Positions 22,301 through 59,398 of a DNA stretch of 64,000 nt are shown here, piece after piece (positions within the stretch are counted from its first letter, which is position 1; every line of letters begins with the position of its first letter). Made by a program: the position numbers and the translations under genes. This stretch comes from Draconibacterium mangrovi (GTDB lineage: Bacteria > Bacteroidota > Bacteroidia > Bacteroidales > Prolixibacteraceae). Under the pieces are notes generated by a model that was not told the DNA's origin, did no database searches, and worked only from the letters and a program-made list of their open reading frames with translations. The stretch lies in assembly GCF_010586825.1 (NCBI RefSeq), contig NZ_JAAAGB010000002.1:372001-436000 (forward strand), written 5' to 3'.

Positions 22301-22879
22301 ATGAGACATAATAAGAAATTTAATCACTTAGGCCGTAAAGCACCACATCGTAAAGCGATGTTGGCAAACATGGCAAGTTCACTTATCGCGCATAAGAGAA
22401 TTTCAACTACTGTTGCAAAAGCGAAAGCATTGCGTATGTACGTTGAGCCACTGATTACTAAGGCAAAAGAAGATACTACACACTCGCGCAGGGTAGTTTT
22501 TAGCTACTTGCAAGACAAAGATGCTGTATCGGAATTGTTCCGCGAAGTAGCTGTAAAAGTTGCTGACCGTCCGGGAGGATACACTCGTATTCTGAAAACC
22601 GGTAGCCGTTTAGGCGACAACGCTGATATGTGTATCATCGAGTTGGTTGACTTCAACGAAGCTATGTTGGCTGCAAAAGAAGAAGCTGCTGCACCTAAAA
22701 AACGTCGTTCACGTCGTGCCGGTGCTAAAAAAGCTGATGCTACTGCGCCAGTTGCAGAGGCTGAAGTTGTTGAAGAAGTTAAAACTGAAGAAGCTCCGGC
22801 TCCTGAAGCAAAAGCTGAAGAAACAACCGAAGAGCCTAAAGCTGACGAGTCAGCTGATGAAGAGAAAAAAGAAGACTAA
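22301..22879 (+). CDS. rplQ: Ribosomal protein L17 with acidic C-terminal tail
   Basis: Residues 1-120 are a normal L17 ([20 protein letters not shown]). Residues about 130-192 are an added tail, first basic ([12 protein letters not shown]), then rich in Ala, Glu and Pro. The tail is low in complexity and probably disordered. Similar extensions occur in other Bacteroidota; their role is not known to me. It is the last gene of the superoperon. Confidence 0.96.
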
Positions 22880-22935: not shown

Positions 22936-22941
22936 ATTTTT

Positions 22942-22992
22942 AGGATGTCATCTGTATGATTTGCAACATAAACAGATGACATCCTTTTTTTA
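22942..22992. terminator. Ribosomal operon terminator 2
   Basis: Arms 22942-22955 and 22972-22985 (AGGATGTCATCTGT) form a 14-bp perfect stem with a 16-base loop, followed by T7. It backs up the previous terminator. Confidence 0.88.
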
Positions 22993-23001
22993 TGTTCCAA
23001 T

Positions 23002-23563
23002 GGCTAAAGCCCCATGTCTAACGACTCTTAATCTTGTGGCCGGGCTTTCCGCGTTTAGACAAAGTGGCCACTAAAATTTCTTGCTTGCCGCAGCCGTGCA
23101 ACATACGAGTTACAATATTTATTTGCTTCCTGCAGCCGTGCTACAAGCTTTCCACAACATTTTTTCGCCTGTTGCAGCTTGCAACATGGTCGCCAACAAA
23201 TTTTTTTGGCTGTTGCAGCCGTGCAAGAGGCCAGCAAATAAGTTTTTTGCTTCCTGCAGCCGTGCTACACGCTTTCCACAACATTTTTTCGCCTGCTGCA
23301 GCTGTGCAACATGGTCGCCAACAAATTTTTTTGGCTGTGCAGCCGTGTAGGAGGCGAGCCAACAAGTTTTTTTGCTTGCCGCAGCTGTGCAACAGGCCTG
23401 CAAATAAGTTTTTTTGCTTGCTGCAGCGCTGCAACAAGGCAGCCAATAAGTTTGCTGAGCAATTACACGGCTGCAGGAAGCCTAAAATCAGGGAGTTACA
23501 AGGTCAGCTTAAGCAAGAGGCTATCTAAATACCGCCTGCAGCAAGGCTTAAGGGCTAAAGCCC
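23002..23563. repeat. Phased tandem array, 41-42-base period, flanked by GGCTAAAGCCC
   Basis: The word GCAGC recurs at 23090, 23132, 23174, 23215, 23256, 23298, 23339, 23381 and 23423, giving steps of 42, 42, 41, 41, 42, 41, 42 and 42. T6-T7 tracts start at 23160, 23201, 23243, 23284, 23326, 23367 and 23409. Units are degenerate and fall into three recurring variants (for example those with GCTACA, those with GCAACATGGTCGCC and those with GAGGCCAGCAAATAAG). The 41-versus-42 steps shift every reading frame, so the long open frames on both strands here are judged to be artefacts. The same 11-base word GGCTAAAGCCC lies at 23002-23012 and 23553-23563, bounding the array. An inverted partial unit follows at about 23464-23480. 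Confidence 0.85.
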
Positions 23564-23569
23564 GGTTCT

Positions 23570-23634
23570 GCTTTCAAAGTTGGGCATCAGCACACCTGGT
23601 TCCTGAACTCTGCAACGTGAGGCTTAAGAAAGCA
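23570..23634 (+). promoter_or_regulatory. Possible structured leader before a small ORF
   Basis: TGCTTTC (near 23570) can pair with GAAAGCA (near 23628-23634), enclosing about 50 bases, just upstream of a strong Shine-Dalgarno. The word AGGCTTAAG occurs on both sides. I do not recognise a known leader class. Confidence 0.25.
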
Positions 23635-23650
23635 AAAGAGGAGGTAAACC

Positions 23651-23764
23651 ATGTATGAGGAAGGCATGATAGCTGGAGATGCGAGAACCGTTTATATAGT
23701 GGTGGCTGAGGTTAGAAAGATCGATGTAAAATTATTTTATATTCCTCCTAAGCGATTAAATTAA
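23651..23764 (+). CDS. Small ORF (37 codons) with strong Shine-Dalgarno
   Basis: ATG at 23651 is preceded by GAGGAGG at 23638-23644 with a six-base spacer, one of the best ribosome sites in the window; most genes here lack one. The product starts MYEEGMIAGDARTVYIVVAE and ends IPPKRLN. I do not recognise it. It could be a leader peptide for the gene at 23810, a fragment of a decayed element, or chance. Confidence 0.3.
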   Translation: MYEEGMIAGDARTVYIVVAEVRKIDVKLFYIPPKRLN

Positions 23765-23809: not shown

Positions 23810-24787
23810 ATGATTAAGAAAGATCAATTTTCCAGAAGAAACTTTATTCGAACAACTGCTGTCGGTGCAACTACTTTGGCGTTTGCACCGCTGTCGTTTA
23901 GTTGTGCTCCCAACGATTCAGGTTCTACCTTTGGAGGTGTCCCCATTGGCGCAATTACTTATAGCTGGCGCAGTATGCCCAGCTCGGTAGAAGACATTAT
24001 AGCCTATTGTAAAGCTGCAAATATTACCTCACTTGAACTCATGGGAAATACGGCAGAAGAATGGGCCGGAGTACCGGCAACACCGAGCCGGCCCGGAAAC
24101 GATGCAAGTGAAGAAGAACGTAATGTGTACCGAATAGCCATAGAAGAAGCCTCACAAACACAAAAAGAGTGGAGAACCACCCTTGATATTAAAAAATACG
24201 AAGAGCTGAAGAAGTTATTCGATGACGCGGGCATACATGTTCATACGGTAAAGTTTGCACCTGCCAACTGGAGCGATGATGAAATTGATTATGCATTTAA
24301 AGCCGCTAAAATATTGGGTGCCGGAGCGGTTACCAACGAAATTGGTGATGAAGCGTGCCGTAAACTCGGAAAATTTGCCGAAAAACATGGAATGATTGCG
24401 GCCTATCATAACCATTCGCAACCCGGGCAGCCCGGTTTTGACTTTGAAACCTTTTTGGCACATTCTCCGGCCAATAAACTGAACTTTGATGTGGGGCACT
24501 ATTTTGGTGCTACAGGTAAGCACCCCAACGAAATAATTGAAAAATTACACGACAGAATTTACAGTATCCACATTAAAGATAAAACCGGTAAAAACACCGA
24601 GCCTGCAAATACCAATAAAGTTTGGGGCGAAGGAGAAACGCCGCTGGCGGATATTCTTGGATTAATAAAAGAAAAGAATTGGAATATATATGCCGATATT
24701 GAATTGGAATATCCTATTCCGGAAGGATCAGATGCACAGAAAGAGATTGTTAAGTGTGTGGAATATTGTAAGACCATTTTAGTTTAG
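23810..24787 (+). CDS. Tat-exported sugar phosphate isomerase/epimerase-like TIM barrel
   Basis: This 325-residue protein begins with a twin-arginine signal (SRRNFIRTTAVGATTLAFA), then a cysteine at about residue 32 (SFSCAP) that could mark lipidation, though the lipobox is weak. The rest fits the xylose isomerase-like/IolE-type TIM barrel, with metal-site segments such as AAYHNHSQPG, NFDVGHYF, YSIHIKDK and IYADIELEYP. Exported members in Bacteroidota often sit with carbohydrate or inositol genes; no such partner is adjacent. The substrate cannot be stated. Confidence 0.8.
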   Translation: MIKKDQFSRRNFIRTTAVGATTLAFAPLSFSCAPNDSGSTFGGVPIGAITYSWRSMPSSVEDIIAYCKAANITSLELMGNTAEEWAGVPATPSRPGNDASEEERNVYRIAIEEASQTQKEWRTTLDIKKYEELKKLFDDAGIHVHTVKFAPANWSDDEIDYAFKAAKILGAGAVTNEIGDEACRKLGKFAEKHGMIAAYHNHSQPGQPGFDFETFLAHSPANKLNFDVGHYFGATGKHPNEIIEKLHDRIYSIHIKDKTGKNTEPANTNKVWGEGETPLADILGLIKEKNWNIYADIELEYPIPEGSDAQKEIVKCVEYCKTILV

Positions 24788-58570: not shown

Positions 58571-59398
58571 TTACCATTCTTTCTCCGATCGCGTACGTTT
58601 GGCTTTGGCAGCTTTCGCTTTTTTCACCTTATCCTGAATGTCGCGTTCGTCGTTTTGCAAGGCCTGCAACAATTGCTCAGCATCCTGTTTCGAAATTTTA
58701 TTTTGCTGAGGTTGTTGCTGTTGCTGCTGGTCTTTATTTTGGTCTTTGTTCTGATCCTGATTTTGCTGATTCTGATCTTTATTCTGGTCCTGCTGATCCT
58801 TGTTCTGATCTTTGTTTTGATCCTGCTTGTCCTTATTCTGATCGTTTTTATCCTGGTTTTGATCTTTGTTCTGGTCCTTATTTTGGTCTTTATCCTGATC
58901 CTTGTTCTGATCTTTATTTTGTTGATCCTGCTGCTCTTTTTTCTTTTTCAGCATTTGCGCATAGGCCAGGTTGTATTTTGTTTCCAGATCATCCGGATTT
59001 TCACGCAGCGCCTTTTTATACGATTCAATGCTTTCATCCAGTTTCTCCTGCATCAGCTGCGTATTTCCGAGGTTGTGGTTAACACGGGCGCGCTCACCCG
59101 GCTCTTCCATTTTTTCGGCCAGCTCAGAGAATTTACCCTCGGCATCTTCGAATTTTTGTTGTTTGTACAAGGCATCTGCCAGGTTGTAATTCCACTTCAA
59201 ATCTTCTGGGCGTTTTTCCAGCGCCTTGCGGTATTCGGTTTCGGCATTACTGTATTTTATGGTGTCAACTTTCATGGTGTCGCGCACGGCCTCCATAAAC
59301 AACTTGTTCCCGTTGCGTACAAATTTCCGTTCGTTTTGCCCGAAAGCAATCCCCGAAATCGTTAGCAGAAATAGTATGAAATATATTCGTCTCATCAT
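58571..59398 (-). CDS. batC: BatC-like TPR protein with Asn/Lys/Asp/Gln repeat tract
   Basis: The start is taken at the MMRR codons (59398). The product has a signal peptide (MMRRIYFILFLLTISGIAFG), TPR units at about residues 25-150, then a low-complexity tract of repeated NKDQ units (about residues 155-235), a polyQ run and a basic end. It lies between batB and batD as in other Bat clusters. The tract is encoded by a tandem, slippage-prone DNA repeat. Confidence 0.88.
   Translation of the reverse strand: MMRRIYFILFLLTISGIAFGQNERKFVRNGNKLFMEAVRDTMKVDTIKYSNAETEYRKALEKRPEDLKWNYNLADALYKQQKFEDAEGKFSELAEKMEEPGERARVNHNLGNTQLMQEKLDESIESYKKALRENPDDLETKYNLAYAQMLKKKKEQQDQQNKDQNKDQDKDQNKDQNKDQNQDKNDQNKDKQDQNKDQNKDQQDQNKDQNQQNQDQNKDQNKDQQQQQQPQQNKISKQDAEQLLQALQNDERDIQDKVKKAKAAKAKRTRSEKEW

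Follow-up and report, generated by a model that had tools for sequence, protein, structure and literature searches.

Tandem arrays of binding sites lie beside the gene of the binding protein in ParR-parC and iteron-type systems. Dispersed intergenic palindromes, present both as gene-linked and as gene-less copies, are typical of the REP and BIME elements that accompany RAYT transposases. Paralogous type III toxin-antitoxin systems carry different repeats, as do the arrays described here. The type III families ToxIN, CptIN and TenpIN (see also PMC4627078) resemble these arrays in placing tandem repeats of ~40 nt beside one protein gene. The protein family DUF6261 (PF19775) is described in the databases and literature searched only as a family of unknown function, in a description that includes no array. 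The open-access literature searched yielded no paper on a link between DUF6261 and an array, and relative to that literature this link is new.

The window analysed here, a 64-kb stretch of the Draconibacterium mangrovi genome, contains a tandem array that is best read, with a probability of roughly 0.55, as an orphan DUF6261-associated array. Such arrays would be helically phased protein-binding sites bordering the insertion sites of defence genes, and their binder is probably DUF6261. A complete locus consists of the 3' end of a chromosomal gene, a DUF6261 gene pointing at it, an array of 40-43-bp units and then variable, often anti-phage, genes; in arrays like that of the window, a conserved end (M1-M2) separates the array from these genes. 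A protein with two-fold symmetry, most likely DUF6261, may recognise each unit as a site in double-stranded DNA. The four-turn spacing would place these sites on one face of the helix, allowing bound protein to assemble along the DNA, and the complex may regulate DUF6261 while marking or insulating the border to the inserted genes. This reading builds on the observed linkage of the arrays to DUF6261, a near-constant period with changing sequence, significant palindromes in many arrays, the lack of an overall strand bias, gene-less copies at the same sites and an enrichment of defence genes.

Like ParR-parC and iteron-type arrays, the arrays adjoin the gene of their putative binder, DUF6261. 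They differ from those systems in that no partner ATPase or filament gene is seen beside DUF6261 at 13 named loci and that gene-less copies are dispersed on the chromosome. The likeness to REP and BIME elements lies in dispersed palindromes with and without a linked gene, whereas the strict tandem register of ~42 bp, the differences in sequence between loci and the absence of a Y1 transposase domain from DUF6261 set the arrays apart.

The array of the window (plus strand, 23073-23453) comprises about nine type B units of 41-42 bp, as established by Tandem Repeats Finder (period 42, 9.1 copies; periods 83 and 125 also reported), word spacing and a wrapped display in register with its relatives. 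Its unit is a quasi-palindromic core (TTGC..GCAGC..GTGCAA) with a T6-T7 tract. GCAGC words start at window positions 23090, 23132, 23174, 23215, 23256, 23298, 23339, 23381 and 23423, giving exactly the spacings of 42, 42, 41, 41, 42, 41, 42 and 42 bases that an earlier note on this DNA had claimed, and a tenth word at 23439 is out of phase with these nine. The recurrence of the T6-T7 tracts was also borne out, with tract ends stepping by 42, 41, 41, 43, 41 and 42. Such regularity is far beyond chance: the lag-42 autocorrelation is 0.56 against at most 0.35 across 300 shuffles, and when 83 GCAGC words were placed at random in 64 kb (5000 trials) the longest chain spaced by 41 or 42 was three. 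Downstream, a diverged last unit with its core in the opposite sense (TTACACGGCTGCAGGAAGCC; plus strand, 23454-23485) is kept in type B relatives. It is followed by the terminal motif M1 (AATCAGGGAGTTA; plus strand, 23486-23498), conserved at the array end of relatives, and by a second conserved block recognised from alignments, M2 (..CCGCCTGCAGCAAGGCTTAAGGGCTAAAG; plus strand, 23522-23560); the match to R1, the model of the array end introduced below, spans 23459-23560.

The mean spacing of 41.6 had been noted as equal to four turns of 10.4-bp B-DNA. Steps of exactly 42, however, prevail in most arrays of the family. The orthologous array of D. sediminis (L066), one unit longer, has word spacings of 42, 42, 42, 42, 41, 42, 41, 42 and 42. 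Since this orthologue and the other relatives mostly step by 42, the mean in the window looks less like a special value than like the outcome of local one-base losses from a 42-base unit. A known RNA family was set aside for the array, Rfam giving no match in the window at its gathering threshold.

A DNA search of the same genome with the array region revealed related arrays: L007 follows an EF-G-like gene, L008 a LysR-like gene, and L009 sits at the end of a contig. Further matches and pattern searches reached more of them (L010, L019 and L020). In each of these arrays the dominant lag is 42 or a multiple of it. Three dissimilar unit types (A, B and C) exist, all ending at the same M1. From 14 sequences of the conserved right end, a sequence model (R1) was built without structure and without periodicity as a component, and it matched 85 times in 16 of the 37 genomes of the genus. 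With the three weakest matches left out, 76 of 82 have an array of period 41-43, or 82-85, upstream, judged by the best autocorrelation lag over 230 bp. Neighbouring genes, picked automatically and crudely, lie on strands (upstream, downstream) relative to the array of (-,+) in 33 cases, (+,+) in 29, (+,-) in 15 and (-,-) in none, five cases being cut by contig ends. A promoter-like module, M3, was considered as a partner of the arrays and rejected: it follows in just 18 of 82, even allowing seven mismatches, and seems to be a separate thing. In 15 of the 82, the upstream gene is of the same kind, ~250 residues long and pointing away from the array. This gene is DUF6261 (Pfam E 2e-34 for the one member tested).

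DUF6261 occurs in 26 of the 37 genomes of the genus (116 matches) and in three of the 246 other genomes of the class sample (seven matches). From these matches 96 loci were examined, of which 95 were testable. The 16 genomes that have R1 matches contributed 79 of their 83 DUF6261 matches; the four left out are truncated or broken fragments. An array above the shuffle maximum is present within the 900 bp upstream in 82 of the 95 loci, compared with 5 of 95 on the 3' side, which served as the control (Fisher 9e-33). The periods of these 82 arrays are 42 (48 arrays), 41 (31), 40 (two) and 43 (one), with no other value. The five loci with a 42-bp array 3' instead of 5' (L163, L211, L214, L217 and L218) belong to one clade of 225-residue proteins; the 3' flanks of the other DUF6261 genes among the testable loci give no positive signal, and eight of the 95 genes have one detected on neither side. 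All six DUF6261 genes in the genome of the window are array-positive. Outside the genus, array-positive DUF6261 genes are found in G167, from the same order, and in G081, from another family of the class, while the one DUF6261 gene of G092 and two of the three in G081 have no array above the null.

Named genomes gave a similar picture, with an array above the null at 20 of the 21 DUF6261 loci that had enough flank (23 loci found, in Draconibacterium, Sunxiuqinia, Maribellus, Prolixibacter, Mangrovibacterium, Gaoshiqia, Parabacteroides, a Prolixibacteraceae bin and an Alistipes bin); the signal at the Parabacteroides locus was not above the null. The named loci come partly from the same genomes as the numbered set, and orthologous loci and shared genomes make many of the counts non-independent. 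DUF6261-linked arrays occur also in genomes that have no R1 matches. The arrays are partners of DUF6261.

The protein itself is predicted by AlphaFold2 to be all-helical (mean pLDDT 89, pTM 0.56). A fold search of the PDB with this model returned no match at E<=0.001, and a sequence search of the PDB no convincing relative (best E 0.095). Pfam matched just DUF6261, with neither a recombinase domain nor a toxin match, and NCBIfam gave two weak matches, one DUF6261 member each. With one query, relatives were found in two of 50,697 phage records and one of 72,556 plasmid records, and the family looks mainly chromosomal because these relatives are so few.

Gene-less arrays are found at the same places as complete loci. 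At four chromosomal sites, one genome carries the gene, DUF6261 and the array and another the gene and the array only. The neighbour genes, named from sequence reading, are an MFS-type transporter, an anion-transporter-like gene, a glmS-like gene and a radical-SAM activating-enzyme-like gene, and at all four sites the (+) gene beside the gene-less array is the convergent neighbour of DUF6261 in other genomes. The window array is placed at a 3' end in the same way as these orphans, and it shares the period and the terminal module of the DUF6261-linked 40-43-bp arrays with no DUF6261 gene beside it. As the six DUF6261 genes of the genome lie elsewhere, it was filed as an orphan, and it looks like an orphan copy of a DUF6261-associated array. 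Regularity is lower in orphan arrays (median 0.57) than in those linked to DUF6261 (median 0.67; p 0.0015). The window locus holds neither a DUF6261 gene nor defence cargo, and its array is probably wearing down.

The upstream neighbour, beyond whose 3' end the array lies, is rplQ (ribosomal protein L17; plus strand, 22301-22879), with orthologues in 17 of the 17 genomes searched. Downstream, a plus-strand gene at 23810-24787 encodes a xylose-isomerase-like TIM-barrel protein with a twin-arginine-like start; AP_endonuc_2 matched two of 66 scanned proteins, members unnamed in the scan, which were taken as this protein and its D. sediminis orthologue. In the relative G003, rplQ and its terminator run straight into the TIM-barrel gene without an array, and the segment at 22941-23755 has no counterpart (L054 1-2140 and 2956-3576 match L061 1-2145 and 2144-2763). 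In G004 and G032 an OmpA-like gene stands between rplQ and the TIM-barrel gene, again without an array. Among the 17 genomes fetched, an array behind rplQ is present in five (G000, G002, G008, G012 and G024) and absent in six that were read (G003, G004, G005, G006, G013 and G032); in the remaining six, whose flanks were scanned for periodicity rather than read, none was detected there. A DUF6261 gene at the rplQ site was found in no genome read. Because G003, G004 and G032 are without the array, the 815-bp segment between rplQ and the TIM-barrel gene was probably gained rather than lost, by parsimony and without a tree.

The side of the array behind M1 is variable and rich in defence genes. 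Alignments of orthologous arrays commonly stop within ~105 bp past M1, and the genes beyond differ. The first same-strand gene behind M1 has a PADLOC match at E<=1e-5 in 17 of 61 cases. The matches below 1e-40 number 14 and comprise AbiD, five type IIG restriction-modification genes, a type II restriction enzyme, QatA, two type II methyltransferases, bSEFIR and three candidate systems, several of these M1-side defence genes being relatives of one another. The 61 are those with their own result among 66 same-strand genes, the other five having entered group scans only, and one Y1_Tnp was found among the 66. On the opposite side, with DUF6261 left out, three families matched, amounting to at most 5 of 62 proteins with a best value of 3.8e-15; the difference between the sides is significant for all matches (Fisher p 0.005) and for strong ones (2e-5).

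Such a pattern could also arise if the array, M1 and M2 together were mainly the end of an element or a landing site, with recombination near M1 importing new, often defensive, genes and DUF6261 as an accessory factor. The ends of the alignments, the defence genes on the M1 side and the segment missing in G003 are all in keeping with this. DUF6261, however, has no recombinase domain, the breakpoints are not at one position and the DUF6261-linked arrays of genomes without R1 matches do not fit this explanation, which we regard as unlikely.

The reading of the arrays as protein-binding sites draws on their palindromes. Among the 70 arrays that have four or more units, the best stem, chosen on Watson-Crick pairing alone, beats a column-permutation null (p<=0.05) in 38, and in the other 32 the palindrome is not significant. 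The significant palindromes differ by locus and include CTTTCGTAGCCCTACGAAAG, TTTCGGAACTTTCCGAAA, ACCTTCGTACGCATACGAAGGT and ATCGTACTCAGTACGAT. The window array, with just three units of exact period, fell outside this test; the palindrome of its D. sediminis orthologue (L087) is not significant (p 0.28), and those of some other type B arrays (L055, L078, L085, L091, L100 and L134) are. Selection for a single-strand fold should produce more G-T than A-C mismatches on the strand that folds. Stem mismatches number 136 G-T and 136 A-C overall and 79 and 97 in the DUF6261-linked set (p 0.20), with a lean to one strand in the clade that has the unit types of the window (19 and 34, p 0.053). The lack of an overall strand bias in the mismatches favours, on balance, double-stranded DNA sites over RNA. 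A simple array of RNA hairpins was set aside on the same strand parity.

A role as RNA, in which the repeats are transcribed as a leader whose hairpins control or neutralise the protein in the manner of type III toxin-antitoxin systems, has some points on its side. The array is 5' of a single gene, its repeats measure ~40 nt, and in some loci it reaches within 3-86 nt of the start codon. In two clades a promoter-like motif may lie beyond the array (4/10 and 5/10), so the array there could be transcribed, and for the two arrays that were folded, both strands exceed shuffles in stability (z -2.4 to -7.7), as expected of palindromic repeats. Against this, and unlike type III systems, the arrays are without overall strand bias in their dyads, and in the clade of the window, with unit types A-C, a promoter-like motif separates the array from the gene in 17 of 20 loci (null 6%) and stands on the far side of the array in 1 of 21. 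The looser pattern used here was written after the conserved sequence had been seen, making the 17/20 partly post hoc, and its null was pooled over clades; a stricter consensus gave 7/74 between (null 3%) and 10/73 beyond the array. The five 3' arrays of one clade and the predicted all-helical fold of DUF6261, with no ToxN, CptN or TenpN match in Pfam, are further departures from type III systems, and control by a leader RNA appears rather unlikely.

What persists between arrays is the period. Unit identity among DUF6261-linked arrays is at background (~0.42) unless the proteins are close, averaging 0.50 where the proteins are 70-80% identical and 0.72 where they exceed 80%, and unit similarity correlates with protein similarity (Mantel r 0.43; 0/2000 permutations as high). 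The period stays within 40-43 in 82 of 82 linked arrays that exceed the null, though most pairs are unrelated in unit sequence. Relative to substitutions, length-breaking gaps are rarer in arrays (9 per 229) than gaps are in the 5' flank (16 per 121), with an odds ratio of 0.30 (p 0.005; 13 non-independent orthologous pairs). Nine orthologous array pairs show no consistent codon-phase bias of substitutions, on which a coding repeat was rejected and the view that the array encodes no protein was upheld. Homologous copies with 42-base units under codon selection had been named as grounds against that view; exact 42-base copies do exist elsewhere, but without such selection. From these comparisons, length seems to be constrained, and sequence and reading frame not. 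The earlier suggestion of selection on DNA shape rather than on a protein is retained insofar as the array is non-coding with a fixed period and loses its support from intrinsic curvature. At odds with a sequence-specific site is the observation that the unit sequence changes faster than the DUF6261 protein.

Fast turnover of sequence, together with gains of units, would be expected of an old minisatellite beside DUF6261 whose period was inherited and homogenised and which has no function. The decay of orphans agrees with such neutrality, as does a period that follows the protein, one clade having 41 and others 42. It accounts poorly, however, for a period of 40-43 in every linked array when unit sequences are mostly at background similarity, for fewer length-breaking gaps than in the flanks and for linkage to one gene family across several genera, and we consider it improbable.

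Curved DNA or a topological buffer behind a very active operon, proposed from the phased T-tracts of the window array and its place behind rplQ and matched by the relative behind an EF-G-like gene, is very unlikely, given that a wedge model yields z +0.56 for the window array, not above shuffles, and finds L178 alone of six arrays more curved than shuffles, that phased T-tracts belong to one of the three unit types, with type A lacking them, and that the neighbours are of many kinds, rplQ and the EF-G-like gene being two of them, most arrays lying away from very active operons, a link to which was rejected.

To return to DUF6261 as the probable binder, a broader proposal can be put forward tentatively. 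DUF6261 and its array might constitute an undescribed chromosomal nucleoprotein system in which every paralogue is paired with a palindrome array of its own, changing fast in sequence but fixed at a four-turn period. The protein would assemble along it on one face of the DNA, the complex would control or shield the boundary at which anti-phage genes are gained and lost, and the rapid turnover of sequence would prevent interference among the paralogues of one genome. An unstudied protein family gains a candidate DNA partner open to immediate testing. It is unusual in nature for sequence to drift to background similarity while a spacing of about four helical turns is kept; the arrays offer such a case, in which selection on DNA phase can be asked about directly, and they flag sites of varying anti-phage genes in these Bacteroidota.

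Several other repeats were observed. REP-like GGGCTAAAGCCC palindromes adjoin M2 in many copies, and a Y1_Tnp (RAYT-like) gene lies near one array (L019 3888-4418, minus strand). The same genome carries a tandem array of 128-bp period with units up to 98% identical (L020 2087-3171), and L042 holds its diverged counterpart. A dispersed promoter-like module of ~190 bp (..ATGCTAACTTTAAACTCCGAATAAAAACC..) was found in 7 of 61 genomes searched, with copies at L009 376-568, 2095-2251 and 2689-2842 and relatives in L039, L041, L043, L048, L049 and L050. This module precedes accessory genes separated by ~150-bp repeats that end like integron attC sites (CCGTTAGGC) and are shared among genomes; judging from these sequences, module and accessory genes look like an integron-type cassette system. 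In the relative G012 (L047 and L049), repeats whose period is 22 bases instead of 42 stand ahead of two copies of this promoter-like module. Within the window, a further tandem repeat region at 58712-58930 has nested periods of 12, 33, 54 and 66.
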